In this document: positions 3,447 to 20,990 of the stretch, piece after piece
Layout of the letters: each line of letters opens with the position of its first letter
How positions within the stretch are numbered: position 1 is the stretch's first letter
Notes under the pieces: model-generated
The model's database searches: none
What the model saw: the letters and a program-made list of their open reading frames with translations, nothing else
Told to the model about the DNA's origin: nothing
Origin: a virus
Direction: 5' to 3' (one strand)
IMG/VR virus record: IMGVR_UViG_3300024252_000100
Span: 1 to 21,120 of that record
DNA: 21,120 bases
Made by a program: the position numbers and the translations under genes

Positions 3447-4052
3447 ATGTATAAAGAGAGAGATATTGAAAACCTTTGGCTAAAATATGAAAAGCTTTTA
3501 AGCAACGTTAAATCTGTAGGTATTGATAAGTTGCTTGAAGAGTTTGGACAAAGAATAATAGAGTCATCTTATTCGCAAAGAGACAAAGAAGTGTTTTGTG
3601 GAATTGCTGGAAACGTAGAGTATTCTTTGACTTTAGCAAAAAATGCAAATGCTATATGCAAAGCTTTAAACTATGATATTAATAGCAGTTCAATTATAAA
3701 ATGTGCTTTATTGTCAATTTTAGGTAGAGTAGGAACTCAATTTGAAGACAGACTTAAAGAATCAGAATCTGAGTGGCATAGAGAAAAGCTTGGTCAATAC
3801 TATGAATGGAACGAATCTTGTCCTAAGTATTCTATTAATCACATGACGTTATATCACCTACAGCGATTTGGCGTTAACTTGTTATGGGATGAATTTGAAG
3901 CTTTATCTCTTTTAAAAGACATGTCAAGTGAAGACAACAAGTTTTACGGTATGCACAAATCAAGATTATCAGTTGTCTTAAATTTAGCACATGAAGCGAC
4001 TATTAAAGACGAGTTAGATAAAATTAAAGGTGTATATACTGTACCATTCTAA
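3447..4052 (+). CDS. HD-domain-like phage protein with its metal-binding residues lost
   Basis: A 201-residue protein whose ATG follows the polymerase stop by one base, with AAGGAA (3434-3439) as ribosome binding site. The pattern matches the small HD-superfamily proteins common in large phages: an N-terminal helix, GNVEYSLTLAKNA (55-67), LLSILGRVG (88-96), WHREKLGQYYEWN (110-122), HMTLYHLQRFGV (132-143) and a final helix. In active relatives the first block carries VEHSL and the second HDLGK. Here the first His is Tyr59, the HD pair is Ser90-Ile91, and the last metal Asp is not evident (NLAHEAT). The fold seems kept and phosphohydrolase chemistry lost. Position next to the polymerase suggests a role with nucleotides or the replisome, but this is inference. 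Confidence 0.6.
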   Translation: MYKERDIENLWLKYEKLLSNVKSVGIDKLLEEFGQRIIESSYSQRDKEVFCGIAGNVEYSLTLAKNANAICKALNYDINSSSIIKCALLSILGRVGTQFEDRLKESESEWHREKLGQYYEWNESCPKYSINHMTLYHLQRFGVNLLWDEFEALSLLKDMSSEDNKFYGMHKSRLSVVLNLAHEATIKDELDKIKGVYTVPF

Positions 4053-4076
4053 TAATTACGTTAAAGGAGAAGTTAT

Positions 4077-4286
4077 ATGTATATAGATCTTTATTATAAC
4101 GTTCTTGAAAAGTTAAGTCAACTTTCTGAAACAAATAAACATGTTGAACCTGACGATGAAGTTCAAGAGCACGCAATTGCAGGTATGGCTTTGCCTCTTG
4201 GTCATTCTCCAGAAACTATTAATAACAAATCTAACAAGAAGAAAAAGAAGAAAAAGAGAACAAAATCTCCATCTGATCATTTATAA
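4077..4286 (+). CDS. Small unknown protein with a poly-lysine tail
   Basis: A 69-residue protein with a strong ribosome binding site (AAAGGAGA, 4063-4070) ahead of ATG 4077. The N-terminal half is predicted helical (MYIDLYYNVLEKLSQL). The middle is acidic then hydrophobic (EPDDEVQEHAIAGMALPLGH). The end is a basic stretch, NKKKKKKKRTKS. I do not recognise a family. A basic disordered tail suggests nucleic-acid or polyanion binding, but that is only composition. It is the last gene before the long ssb operon, and no clear terminator follows. Confidence 0.6.
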   Translation: MYIDLYYNVLEKLSQLSETNKHVEPDDEVQEHAIAGMALPLGHSPETINNKSNKKKKKKKRTKSPSDHL

Positions 4287-14079: not shown

Positions 14080-14121
14080 TTGTATTACCAGATAATTATT
14101 ACATCTAACAGGAGTTAATCA

Positions 14122-15097: not shown

Positions 15098-15125
15098 TAT
15101 ATTGTGTGTAAATATACACAATATA
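15098..15125. promoter_or_regulatory. Perfect 10-bp inverted repeat over the -35 of the second thyX promoter
   Basis: TATATTGTGT (15098-15107) and ACACAATATA (15116-15125) are exact reverse complements separated by 8 bases holding most of the TGTAAA box. It directly follows the pyrophosphatase stop. It could be an operator for a dimeric repressor or activator, or an RNA hairpin ending the upstream transcript; the following bases are T-rich but not a clean T-run. Confidence 0.45.
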
Positions 15126-15134
15126 TTTTATAAT
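15107..15134 (+). promoter_or_regulatory. Promoter, TGTAAA-N16-TATAAT, before the divergent thyX
   Basis: TGTAAA (15107-15112, wider GTGTGTAAA) and TATAAT (15129-15134) are 16 bases apart. Transcription should start near 15141, leaving a short leader with AAGGAG (15149-15154) before the TTG start of the next gene. The -35 is inside an inverted repeat. Confidence 0.75.
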
Positions 15135-17301: not shown

Positions 17302-17631
17302 ATGTTTTTTAAGATAAACAACAGTTTTTTCTTGGATGAAGAAGATATTGGTAATCTTGTATGTGTAAAAATTCATCAACATTACTATAATTCAATAGAT
17401 ATATATGATAATTGTTTAGTGATTGACGCCATTTATACAGATAGCAATATTAGGCCGAGTCAAATAGTATTTTTAAAAGAATCCGGTTTTATATTGAAAC
17501 TTAATATGAATTATAATTCAAGTATAGAAGTTAAAAATTTATCTAGTATAAAAGAATTGAAAAGCAAAAATGATAAAAATAGGTTCTTTGATAAATATGA
17601 AAGACATTACAACAGACAAAGAAATCAATAA
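17302..17631 (+). CDS. Small SH3-like protein, member 2 of a local family
   Basis: A 109-residue protein with ATG 17302; TTG 17296 is an in-frame alternative that overlaps the previous stop. EDIGNLVCVKIHQHYYNS, then DNCLVIDAIYTD and PSQIVFLKESGFILKL give the same strand order as its neighbours. The C-terminus is a basic, possibly helical tail (KYERHYNRQRNQ). A perfect copy of the window's promoter motif lies inside the gene at 17364-17391. Its end overlaps the next gene by 62 bases. No motif for function. Confidence 0.5.
   Translation: MFFKINNSFFLDEEDIGNLVCVKIHQHYYNSIDIYDNCLVIDAIYTDSNIRPSQIVFLKESGFILKLNMNYNSSIEVKNLSSIKELKSKNDKNRFFDKYERHYNRQRNQ
17364..17391 (+). promoter_or_regulatory. Intragenic promoter, exact TGTAAA-N16-TATAAT
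   Basis: TGTAAA (17364-17369, wider GTGTAAA) and TATAAT (17386-17391) match the consensus exactly although they lie within a coding region. Transcripts from about 17398 would carry the two following small genes and the epimerase, which have no other promoter of this type. Confidence 0.5.
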
Positions 17632-17757: not shown

Positions 17758-18000
17758 ATGGAAAAGTATAGTTCATATAAGAGTGGTTTAAAAATAGGTG
17801 ACTACGTTCATTACGAATACAATTGTATTTTTACAGCTTTTGTTGAGAGAAGTTTGATTTTAGATAGAAAACATCTTTTTACAAAAGAGACTAGATGGGG
17901 AGAACGAAGTTTTTTTGAATATTCTGTATACAACAACGGGAACGTAAAAAAAATAAGAACACAAGATATGAGAATTATAAATTGTGAAAGGACAAGCTAA
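17758..18000 (+). CDS. Small SH3-like protein, member 4 of a local family
   Basis: An 80-residue protein starting two bases after the previous stop. LKIGDYVHYEYNCIF (11-25) is the clearest G-D-x-V strand of the group, followed by SLILDRKHLF, RSFFEYSVYNNGNVKKIRTQ and MRIINC. The order of strands matches the other members, with a longer insertion before the third strand. Its end overlaps the ribosome site AAAGGA of the epimerase gene. No catalytic or membrane feature is seen. Confidence 0.5.
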   Translation: MEKYSSYKSGLKIGDYVHYEYNCIFTAFVERSLILDRKHLFTKETRWGERSFFEYSVYNNGNVKKIRTQDMRIINCERTS

Positions 18001-18001
18001 A

Positions 18002-18991
18002 ATGAGAATTGCAATAACAGGTGAAAAAGGTTTTATCGCTAGCAACTTATCAAATAAAATTAATAAATTTAGTCATGAATTTGTATCATTAGATGAAAGC
18101 AAATATTCAGAAGGCTATGAAACTACTGAGAGTGGTGAAGTATGTGTATATAGTAATAGCATTGAAAAATGGTCGCAGCTTCTTTCAGACTTAGATGTTG
18201 ATGTTATTATACATAATGCTGCTGTTGTAGGAACTGATGTTGTTGCGTTAAACCCGGAGCATGCAATATCAACTAATGTGTTAGGAACTCACATTATAAC
18301 TGAGGCAGCTAATAATACAAATACAAAGATTGTGTATATAGGGACAACAGTCATATATGATACATATCTTTATCAAGAAAATGAAATCTATGAAAACAGC
18401 ACGATATATCCTCGAACAAATTATGCTGTTCAAAAGTATTCTGGAGAAATGACTGTTAAGAATAACGCAAAAAGCTGGTTAGTAGTTAGACCGTTATTTG
18501 CATACGGTGGTGAAGGAGATATGAACTCTCTTATATCAAAGTCTCTATTCTGTATACATAATAATATAAATAATTTAGATATGTTTTTAAATCCTAGAAA
18601 GATAAAGGATTATATGCATGTTGAAGATTTTTGCAGCAGTGTTATGGACTTAATCGTAAATGATATTAGTTATGAAGATTTCAACATTACAGCAGAGAAT
18701 CCTCATAACACATTAGAAATAGTTAGTCTAATTGAAGAAGTGACTGGTAAAAGTTTAGAGTCAGTTATTAAGTGGCACCCAGAAACAGATTACTTAGGGA
18801 ACCATAGATTAAGTAACGATAAATTTCTAGACGTTATAGGCAAAAGTAGATCTAGAAGTCTTAAGGAAGGAATAAGACAATCTTGGGAGTCAATAAAAGA
18901 AATGGATAAACTTAATAAGTTTAATCCACTTAAACATTTAACAGAAGCAAAAGATAAAAACATCGATTTAAAGATGTTTTTCCCTAAGTGA
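18002..18991 (+). CDS. NAD(P)-dependent sugar epimerase/dehydratase (extended SDR)
   Basis: A 329-residue extended short-chain dehydrogenase of the type that acts on nucleotide sugars. The nucleotide-binding turn is MRIAITGEKGFIAS (GxxGFIA, with Ala where Gly is usual). Then DVIIHNAAVVG (67-77), a catalytic Ser/Thr in VYIGTTVIYD (111-120), and YAVQK (Tyr141, Lys145). LVVRPLFAYGG (160-170) and DYMHVEDF fit the substrate domain. Residues after ~300 form an extra basic tail. ATG 18002 has AAAGGA at 17987-17992; a GTG at 17984 would include that site and is less likely. In phages such enzymes modify host surface sugars or supply sugars for DNA or protein decoration; no glycosyltransferase is adjacent, so the role is open. 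Confidence 0.8.
   Translation: MRIAITGEKGFIASNLSNKINKFSHEFVSLDESKYSEGYETTESGEVCVYSNSIEKWSQLLSDLDVDVIIHNAAVVGTDVVALNPEHAISTNVLGTHIITEAANNTNTKIVYIGTTVIYDTYLYQENEIYENSTIYPRTNYAVQKYSGEMTVKNNAKSWLVVRPLFAYGGEGDMNSLISKSLFCIHNNINNLDMFLNPRKIKDYMHVEDFCSSVMDLIVNDISYEDFNITAENPHNTLEIVSLIEEVTGKSLESVIKWHPETDYLGNHRLSNDKFLDVIGKSRSRSLKEGIRQSWESIKEMDKLNKFNPLKHLTEAKDKNIDLKMFFPK
18956..18981 (+). terminator. Terminator-like hairpin inside the end of the epimerase gene
   Basis: AAAAACATC (18956-18964) and GATGTTTTT (18973-18981) are perfect reverse complements with an 8-base loop, so the RNA hairpin ends in five U. It lies just before the stop codon and before a new promoter region. The A-tract and T-tract make it potentially bidirectional. 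Coding constraint (KNIDLKMFF) could explain part of it. Confidence 0.45.
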
Positions 18992-19004: not shown

Positions 19005-19031
19005 TGTAAACTAGTCGCATTGTTAGATACT
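19005..19031 (+). promoter_or_regulatory. Weak promoter, TGTAAA-N15-GATACT, before the nuclease gene
   Basis: CTGTAAA ends at 19010 and GATACT (19026-19031) is the best -10 near the expected distance, with four of six matches. Transcripts would start near 19038, inside the hairpin that covers the ribosome site, so the hairpin would be broken in these transcripts. Confidence 0.35.
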
Positions 19032-19050
19032 TACTCTTAAAGGAGTAAGT
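19029..19050 (+). promoter_or_regulatory. Hairpin sequestering the ribosome binding site of the nuclease gene
   Basis: ACTTACTC (19029-19036) pairs perfectly with GAGTAAGT (19043-19050) around a 6-base loop. The ribosome site AAGGAG (19040-19045) is half in the loop and half in the right arm, two to seven bases from the ATG side of the stem. Read-through RNA would hide it; RNA starting near 19038 would not. T4 uses this arrangement for several genes, including the homing endonuclease I-TevI. Confidence 0.5.
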
Positions 19051-19051
19051 T

Positions 19052-19819
19052 ATGCCTAGAAAAAGTACACAAGTAACGTTGATATGCACAAATTGTGCTT
19101 GCGAATATAAAAAACTTGCATCAAGAGCAGAAAAATCAAAGTTCTGTTCTAAGTTATGTAAAGATAAAAAGTCAATACAATATAAGATTGAAAAATGTGT
19201 TAGCTGTCAAGAGGAGTTTAAATCTAAAAGAGGAAAGAAATATTGTTCTAGAGACTGTTATATCAAAGAGCACAAGCATGAAAGAATGGATTTGACTTGT
19301 GACTATTGTGGTGACACTTATCAGAAACCTGTCGGTAAGCCTACAAAATATTGTGGTAAACAATGTCAGTATAAGGCTCAAAGCAGCGGTTTACATGAAA
19401 TACCTTCAAATGGTAGGTTAGGTTTTAGATATGATTTGCCGAGCAATTACTTTTTTAAGTCATCTTTAGAGGCAGACTATGCGAGATGGTGTGAAGCTAC
19501 AAAAAAACCTTATGTTTATGAGCATAAAACATTTACAGTTCAATATGATGGAAGAGACAAGCAATATACTCCGGACTTTTATCATCCCGATGAGGATAGA
19601 TATGTAGAGTTAAAAGCAATAAGAAGAGATAGGAAGTTTAATTCTAATCTTCTAGCTGCAGATATTTTAAAGCAGCAAGGGCTTAATATCGACGTGTTAT
19701 TAATGCATGAATTTTATAAAATAATAAAACAAAGCGGGCATTATTGGACAGTTGACAATATAGAAAACAAAAATTATCATGGAACAAGAAGACTTATATA
19801 TCTCAAGAAAACACAGTAA
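19052..19819 (+). CDS. Zinc-finger PD-(D/E)XK endonuclease, probable free-standing homing endonuclease
   Basis: A 255-residue protein in two parts. Residues 1-110 hold three repeats of CxxC then CxxxC: C12/C15 with C32/C36, C49/C52 with C65/C69, C83/C86 with C101/C105, each able to bind zinc and contact DNA. Residues ~120-230 fit a PD-(D/E)XK nuclease: SSLEADYARWCE with Glu140, QYTPDFYHP with Asp175, and VELKAI with Glu186 and Lys188. The gene sits between a terminator-like hairpin and its own weak promoter, with a ribosome site folded into a hairpin, as for T4-type homing endonucleases. Alternatives are a phage repair or host-DNA-degrading nuclease. Start ATG 19052 has strong AAGGAG. The end overlaps the next gene by 41 bases. 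Confidence 0.7.
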   Translation: MPRKSTQVTLICTNCACEYKKLASRAEKSKFCSKLCKDKKSIQYKIEKCVSCQEEFKSKRGKKYCSRDCYIKEHKHERMDLTCDYCGDTYQKPVGKPTKYCGKQCQYKAQSSGLHEIPSNGRLGFRYDLPSNYFFKSSLEADYARWCEATKKPYVYEHKTFTVQYDGRDKQYTPDFYHPDEDRYVELKAIRRDRKFNSNLLAADILKQQGLNIDVLLMHEFYKIIKQSGHYWTVDNIENKNYHGTRRLIYLKKTQ

Positions 19820-20990
19820 AGGATTTGCGGCGTTAACTATAGTTTTGTTGGCTGCAGTCTTATCTATACTGTCATACACAGTAATACAATACGGGAGAAT
19901 CTCTCTTAATGTCATTGAAGAAAAACAAAGTTTAGATTCGTGCAGTGTAGGAGTAGGAAGAAGTATAATCAGCACAAACGATATTGAAAGTATTTGTTCT
20001 AGTGATTTTCTGAATAGCTGTAGTGGTCTTTTGAACATGCCTGTGCCGAACATGAGTTGTGTTGACGAAGGATTAGAGTGTGATGGTGTAGGTATATGTG
20101 AAAGAGTTTTTACTATATCATCTACGTACAATCCTGGTCGTGGAGAAGTTTCCAAGGATGTTATAGTTAAAGTCAAGGAAGAAGAGCATGATGTGAGTAT
20201 TGTAGACGCTGCTGTAATAATGTTACTTGACTTTAGCGGTTCTATGAATGGAAATAGAATTACACAGTTAAAAGACACAGTAAGGTCATTTATAGATTCT
20301 GATTATAATCTAAGTTACTCTGTTATTCTTTATAATAGCGACATTATAACAACATCAAATATTGGAAAAGGTCAGCAACACAAGCAATCTATACACACTA
20401 TGATTAACAGCAATAATCCTGGCGGTGGGACAAATTTTGTAAAGCCTTTGAACGAAGCATTAAATCAAATACAAACTAGCAATTACGAAGTATACTACAT
20501 ACTTTTGATAAGTGACGGCTCACCAAACGAAGGTATAGACTCTTCGCAAAACTTTGTTCAAAATAACGTATTAAACTTGAACAATGATGCATGTTTATTT
20601 ACTACATCACAAAATCCTTGTATCACAGTATATACTTTGGGTGTTGACAACGCAAACCAGAGTGCTTTGCAAAGTATAAGTGGAAATACTCTTAGTCAAA
20701 ATCCAGAAGAGTATAGTTACGCAGTCAATGCTAATCAAGTGCAATTAGCATTTCAAGCTATTATAGAAGAGATAATGTGTAGAATAGGACCGGTTTTAGC
20801 TGAGTTACCTATTAACGTATTTAATGGTTTAGACTTGTTAGATGAAAACATTGATTATGTATACAATGAAGATACAAAAGTGTTTAAGTTTTATGATGTT
20901 GATCCATTTTATATCTGTACTGAAATGTTGAATGATAGCGCACAATTAACTTTAAGATGGGGAGACGTGAATTTAAATGTTAGCGAGTAA
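19779..20990 (+). CDS. Membrane-anchored VWA-domain protein with pilin-like N-terminus
   Basis: A 403-residue protein. Residues 1-15 are charged (SRKHSKG), then FAALTIVLLAAVLSILSYTV (16-35) is a single membrane helix. The KG/F junction looks like a type IV prepilin cleavage site but lacks the usual Glu at +5. Residues ~50-135 contain at least six cysteines (55, 73, 81, 94, 101, 107), suggesting a disulfide-bonded extracytoplasmic part. From ~142 a von Willebrand factor A domain follows with a complete metal-ion adhesion site: LLDFSGSMN (D151, S153, S155), GGGTNF (T218) and ISDGSPNEG (D246). The last ~80 residues are beta-rich. It could be a surface adhesin, pilus-tip-like or pilus-blocking protein. 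ATG 19779 starts inside the nuclease gene with a weak ribosome site. Rare cargo for a phage; its role is unknown. Confidence 0.75.
   Translation: MEQEDLYISRKHSKGFAALTIVLLAAVLSILSYTVIQYGRISLNVIEEKQSLDSCSVGVGRSIISTNDIESICSSDFLNSCSGLLNMPVPNMSCVDEGLECDGVGICERVFTISSTYNPGRGEVSKDVIVKVKEEEHDVSIVDAAVIMLLDFSGSMNGNRITQLKDTVRSFIDSDYNLSYSVILYNSDIITTSNIGKGQQHKQSIHTMINSNNPGGGTNFVKPLNEALNQIQTSNYEVYYILLISDGSPNEGIDSSQNFVQNNVLNLNNDACLFTTSQNPCITVYTLGVDNANQSALQSISGNTLSQNPEEYSYAVNANQVQLAFQAIIEEIMCRIGPVLAELPINVFNGLDLLDENIDYVYNEDTKVFKFYDVDPFYICTEMLNDSAQLTLRWGDVNLNVSE

Follow-up and report, generated by a model that had tools for sequence, protein, structure and literature searches.

Hairpin-controlled genes in other phages

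The endonuclease genes I-TevI, I-TevII, I-TevIII and segB of phage T4, as well as mobE of phage Aeh1, are controlled by a hairpin combined with a late promoter (PMC2988022). T4 genes e (lysozyme) and soc are late genes that are also present in early transcripts, where a hairpin silences them until the late promoter is used (PMC3014915, PMC2988022).

Here, we analysed a 21,120-nt stretch of viral DNA (IMG/VR record IMGVR_UViG_3300024252_000100, positions 1-21,120), hereafter the window; all coordinates refer to it and all features lie on its + strand. A first-pass annotation had proposed T4-like logic at a nuclease gene near the end of this stretch, which is supported by a hairpin, by the covariation of its arms in relatives and by a promoter-like motif nested within it. 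From these comparisons, we consider it probable that RNA structure and promoter position together form a timing switch at this gene. A limited search of the open-access literature found no paper on this phage group or its switch.

A hairpin over the ribosome site

The nuclease gene (19052-19819, 255 aa; start codon 19052-19054) is preceded by the Shine-Dalgarno sequence AAGGAG (19040-19045). The left hairpin arm, ACTTACTC (19029-19036), is perfectly complementary to the right arm, GAGTAAGT (19043-19050), which overlaps the Shine-Dalgarno sequence; the two are separated by a 6-base loop. Folding adds a ninth pair (U19037.G19042) and gives the hairpin -9.9 kcal/mol. Both sequence and folding thus confirm the perfect 8-bp stem that the first-pass annotation had described as hiding this ribosome site.

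Taken alone, the stem is weak evidence, because such stems are not rare in the A+T-rich window: it holds ten perfect stems of at least 8 bp with loops of 3-8 bases, vs 5.05 +/- 2.6 in dinucleotide shuffles, and the 90-base read-through RNA folds no better than shuffles overall (z 0.15). The hairpin is nonetheless the most stable among the window's 27 gene leaders (-9.9 vs -4.3 kcal/mol for the next; z -3.2), and the same leader ranks 1 of 60 in the near-identical contig G009. An Rfam search gave no match. The main support, which is strong, comes from comparison with relatives.

Another perfect A+T-rich stem, of 9 bp and followed by a T run, lies at the end of the upstream epimerase gene (18956-18981); it is not retained in relatives such as L007.

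The arms covary in relatives

We scanned viral contigs twice, and the wider setting yielded 72 distinct nuclease loci with identities from 100% down to 38%, two of them short partial matches only. Covariation was tested on 49 distinct leaders, and also on 13 divergent groups (<62% similarity). Across the 49 leaders, both arms vary jointly into quite different stems: the same layout is built from CATATTTATTCT/AGGAGTAAGTATG in L014, GATATTTA/TAAATATC in L063, GATTGAC/GTCAATC in L044 and ATATAACTATC/GGTGGTTATAT in L047. Each leader's own arms pair at about -7.8 kcal/mol, vs about -5.3 kcal/mol when arms are swapped between leaders (permutation p ~5e-5). Among the 13 divergent groups these values are about -8.3 and -4.6 kcal/mol, and p was ~5e-5 at every clustering level tried. 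The first-pass annotation had pointed to covariation in related phages as a check, and the arms are indeed both conserved and covarying.

As the MAFFT leader alignment ignores structure, we counted pairs in the fold of each leader. These folds have C-G, U-A, A-U, G-C, G.U and U.G pairs at the free position of the promoter-like octamer described below. In many relatives, the AUG of the nuclease gene is also paired. Such a hairpin is absent from some leaders, among them those of the orthologs L024 (contig G002) and L051.

Just 5' of the hairpin, ~30-45 bases ahead of the start codon, a second inverted repeat is present in L017, L058, L059, L060 and their relatives. It reads GGGTT..AACCC, or CAAGGT..ACCTTG in L015, apparently with compensatory changes.

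A shorter RNA would free the ribosome site

The predicted mean cost of freeing the ribosome site in 48 leaders is 11.0 kcal/mol on read-through RNA vs 2.6 kcal/mol on RNA starting inside the hairpin. This gap is at least 3 kcal/mol in 44 of the 48 leaders, and the cost does not differ between long and short RNA in L048 and L037. Folding both transcripts, a check named in the first-pass annotation, bears out the difference for the window itself, where the ribosome site is predicted to open at 9.5 (long) vs 2.1 (short) kcal/mol. That annotation placed an RNA start near 19038, downstream of a candidate promoter at 19005-19031. The release of the ribosome site holds up, since by prediction any start from 19034 onward lowers the cost to ~3 kcal/mol or less. 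The promoter probably does not: read as a sigma-70 site, it (TGTAAA-15-GATACT) matches the consensus at only 3/6 and 4/6 positions and fails the criteria of our consensus scan, and relatives do not conserve the -35 part.

An octamer within the left arm

The promoter is probably an octamer that also occurs before other non-early genes of these phages, meaning genes without the GTGTAA early-type promoter described below. In the window it reads ATACTTAC (19027-19034, inside the left arm), while its group form is ATANTTAY and its commonest form ATATTTAT. ATANTTAY occurs in 38/49 distinct nuclease leaders (2.2 expected) and in 62/265 other non-early leaders (23.8 expected), a wider pattern that came from the nuclease leaders themselves. 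ATATTTAT occurs in 33 of the other non-early leaders vs 9.2 expected, usually 17-36 bases ahead of the start codon, and in 2 leaders of the early-type class vs 1.9 expected. Genes with the octamer include those for a head-decoration/tail-fibre-like protein, a baseplate wedge subunit and PhoH. As a ribonucleotide reductase subunit gene carries it too, "late" is an uncertain label for these genes.

T4 late promoters are spaced 6 bases from the RNA start. With this spacing, we infer a short RNA beginning at 19040, which is also the first base of the Shine-Dalgarno sequence.

Could the octamer instead be no promoter at all, conserved through its pairing with the Shine-Dalgarno spacer, in a hairpin that merely holds the nuclease constantly low? 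Being inside the stem, the octamer is under both constraints at once, so that they are confounded, and part of its conservation may follow from pairing. The exact window form, two letters off ATATTTAT, is also rare, being found in none of the 265 other non-early leaders. However, leaders that lack the hairpin (L024, L048, L051 and L070) retain the octamer, and its main form is over-represented upstream of unrelated genes. A second gene family, discussed below, has it in a hairpin loop, a place for which pairing cannot account. We therefore regard constant low expression as unlikely.

Early-type promoters and the proposed switch

Genes and leaders were also read in long related contigs for promoter classes. 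An early-type promoter (GTGTAA, 17-18 bases, TATAAT) precedes many genes, including thyX, ndt and the gene for DNA polymerase III alpha. The nuclease leader does not belong to this class; the window has CTGTAA-16-GATACT there, and relatives lack it. Another promoter-like class, TATAATAAACCATAAGG, is seen ~40-75 bases before start codons in contigs G001 and G002.

Early-type promoters do lie upstream of the nuclease gene on the same strand. One (GTGTAA-17-TATAAT, 15106-15134) precedes thyX2 and is a possible source of read-through RNA, while a promoter-like match of the same form (17363-17391) falls within a coding frame, 1.7 kb before the nuclease gene. No terminator-like site was found between these and the nuclease gene.

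From these sequences, we infer a late promoter in the octamer, an RNA start close behind it, repression in the cell before that start is used, and nuclease activity of the product. Read-through RNA from the upstream early-type promoters would contain both arms, and the resulting hairpin would hide the Shine-Dalgarno sequence, and in many relatives the AUG along with it, so that little nuclease is made. The octamer would act as a second promoter, used once the phage switches on its non-early genes. Its RNA would start ~6 bases on, at or just before the Shine-Dalgarno sequence, and, without the left arm, would be translated. The product would be a DNA-binding PD-(D/E)xK nuclease whose early synthesis should be avoided.

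The ribosome site might be freed otherwise than by a new start, through a change in temperature, a protein or cleavage of the long RNA. In general, A+T-rich stems of 7-12 pairs can melt or be cut, but neither loop sequence nor loop length is conserved among the nuclease leaders, so no common protein or cutting site is apparent; the conserved element is the octamer, and we consider such a release very unlikely. Least probable of all is a DNA operator, for instance one for autorepression by the nuclease as T4 I-TevI does at its own promoter (PMC2988022): the inverted repeat overlaps a promoter-like motif and the enzyme has zinc-finger-like repeats, but wobble pairs are frequent (octamer positions 8, 10 and 11 each have U.G in 12-15 leaders), loop lengths differ greatly and wholly different stems stand beside closely similar proteins, which points to RNA pairing rather than a single binding site.

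The arrangement is rare and found mostly before nuclease-like genes

When 950 Shine-Dalgarno-bearing genes of 11 related contigs were screened under strict criteria, six passed, all of which look nuclease-like. Four are orthologs of the window nuclease. The others are a protein in contig G003, which by eye is like the phrog_3339/559 homing endonuclease of G001, and a gene for an MTES_1575-like REase in G002; for both, the predicted gain from a hairpin-internal start is small (<2 kcal/mol).

A looser screen took in 119 octamer-bearing genes; nine orthologs of the window nuclease were among its top 15, together with members of two small gene families whose window copies start at 4077 and 14122. 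The octamer precedes both copies (at 4052-4059 and 14092-14099), which themselves lack the hairpin. Relatives of both families have the octamer nested in a strong hairpin; for the 4077 family, those in G002 and G008 have it in the hairpin loop. The same control is predicted for HNH and MTES_1575-type nucleases and for two small families whose genes belong to the replication cluster.

The nuclease

The protein begins with repeated CxxC pairs, resembling zinc fingers, followed by a C-terminal PD-(D/E)xK domain in which E140, D175 and E186-x-K188 are invariant. This domain resembles T7 endonuclease I; the closest Pfam family is Phage_endo_I (PF05367), for which the window protein scores below the cut-off (15.8 bits vs a gathering score of 29.1), while 10/22 members match it with E <0.01 (best 9.2e-5). 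We predict a DNA-binding PD-(D/E)xK nuclease. Structure prediction (pLDDT 63.9, pTM 0.27, catalytic domain mostly <60) was too poor for a meaningful fold search. No relatives of the protein were found in 50,697 phage records, and none were confirmed in bacterial and archaeal genomes. The endonuclease VII family had no match in 12 contigs, in a search where the controls were silent too. Shortly downstream of the L044 ortholog lies another nuclease-like gene (L044:1566-2540), which also begins with a zinc-finger-like part.

Resident in the window, possibly homing in split inteins

The first-pass annotation had called the gene a putative homing endonuclease and regarded it as selfish. The window gene is not at an intein; it lies between a nucleotide-sugar epimerase (17984-18991) and a VWA-domain protein (19779-20990), and was present at every one of the 48 clade loci where the epimerase occurs and the sequence runs on far enough after it. 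At loci lacking the epimerase, it stays near ndt. No sporadic presence or empty sites were seen among these close relatives (48/48 clade loci). Because of this, the window gene is best described from synteny as resident and conserved, with a fixed location; the idea of a freshly mobile element is rejected, and "selfish" is not supported for this copy. In a sister group (thyX2, ndt and epimerase 44-52% identical), the gene is absent at this site, and ten of its contigs searched whole gave a weak, short nuclease match in one. Clade-wide presence and sister-group absence therefore suggest that the gene was probably gained once and then kept.

The homing part of the claim does fit relatives in three other phages, where the gene lies between the halves of a DnaE split intein (L111:1483-2406, L074:2857-3771 and L234:3001-3921), at the split point RHR|C...N|TSWPDID. 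Those of L111 and L074 are ~40% identical to the window protein, and that of L234 is 65% identical to L074. Here, a T7-endonuclease-I-like family occupies the position of a homing endonuclease, tying this domain to split-intein homing. Hairpins over the three start regions are readable by eye; in L074 and L111, an octamer-based short RNA would still hold the left arm.

Contig G009 has a nuclease 99% identical to that of the window. Its DnaE is spread over several frames with three intein-like insertions (L078:2-5721), two of which carry further endonuclease-like genes. The split-intein site that holds the nuclease family in the three other phages is empty there. In the leader of the L078 gene at 2856, the Shine-Dalgarno sequence is likewise part of a hairpin, whose loop contains ATAGTTAA.

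Comparison with known systems

Work by Dassa in 2009 reportedly described split inteins with an endonuclease gene between their halves as "fractured genes". L111, L074 and L234 share this layout; the published endonucleases are said to be Vsr-like, whereas those found here resemble T7 endonuclease I.

Compared with the T4 I-Tev and segB genes and Aeh1 mobE, the likenesses are an RNA structure that hides the ribosome site on upstream-initiated RNA (here predicted), a nested promoter giving RNA without the 5' arm (here a candidate, the conserved promoter-like octamer at the corresponding place) and nuclease genes that lie within units of early or middle transcription. The differences are the promoter (TATAAATA in T4, an ATANTTAY octamer here), the enzyme (GIY-YIG or HNH there, PD-(D/E)xK here) and the gene itself, which here is resident and conserved throughout the clade. 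T4 e, soc and gene 49 belong to another phage lineage, with another promoter and enzyme. Gene 49 (endonuclease VII), which to go by the title of a 1988 report by Barth is reportedly under the same hairpin control, would be the closest functional parallel if the window enzyme, whose activity is putative, is a resolvase.

The first-pass annotation had also suggested convergence with T4. This is likely, though not proven: the T4 late promoter TATAAATA is found in 0/49 nuclease leaders, and among nine partly incomplete related contigs the T4 late-sigma (gp55-type) family phrog_234 has one marginal match (E 4.7e-4). A sigma-70-like protein is encoded in five to six of the nine (clear in five); one such protein is that of L084:13880-14641. 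The fuller version is tentative, and we would call it possible rather than probable: that a lineage without the T4 late promoter evolved the hairpin-nested-promoter switch independently, mostly for nucleases, including a T7-endonuclease-I-like family that homes in split inteins and is resident here. If true, what T4 does to hold back dangerous or late proteins would be a general strategy, for which a different promoter and a different enzyme can serve. The broad covariation record makes the rule behind such hairpin switches testable.
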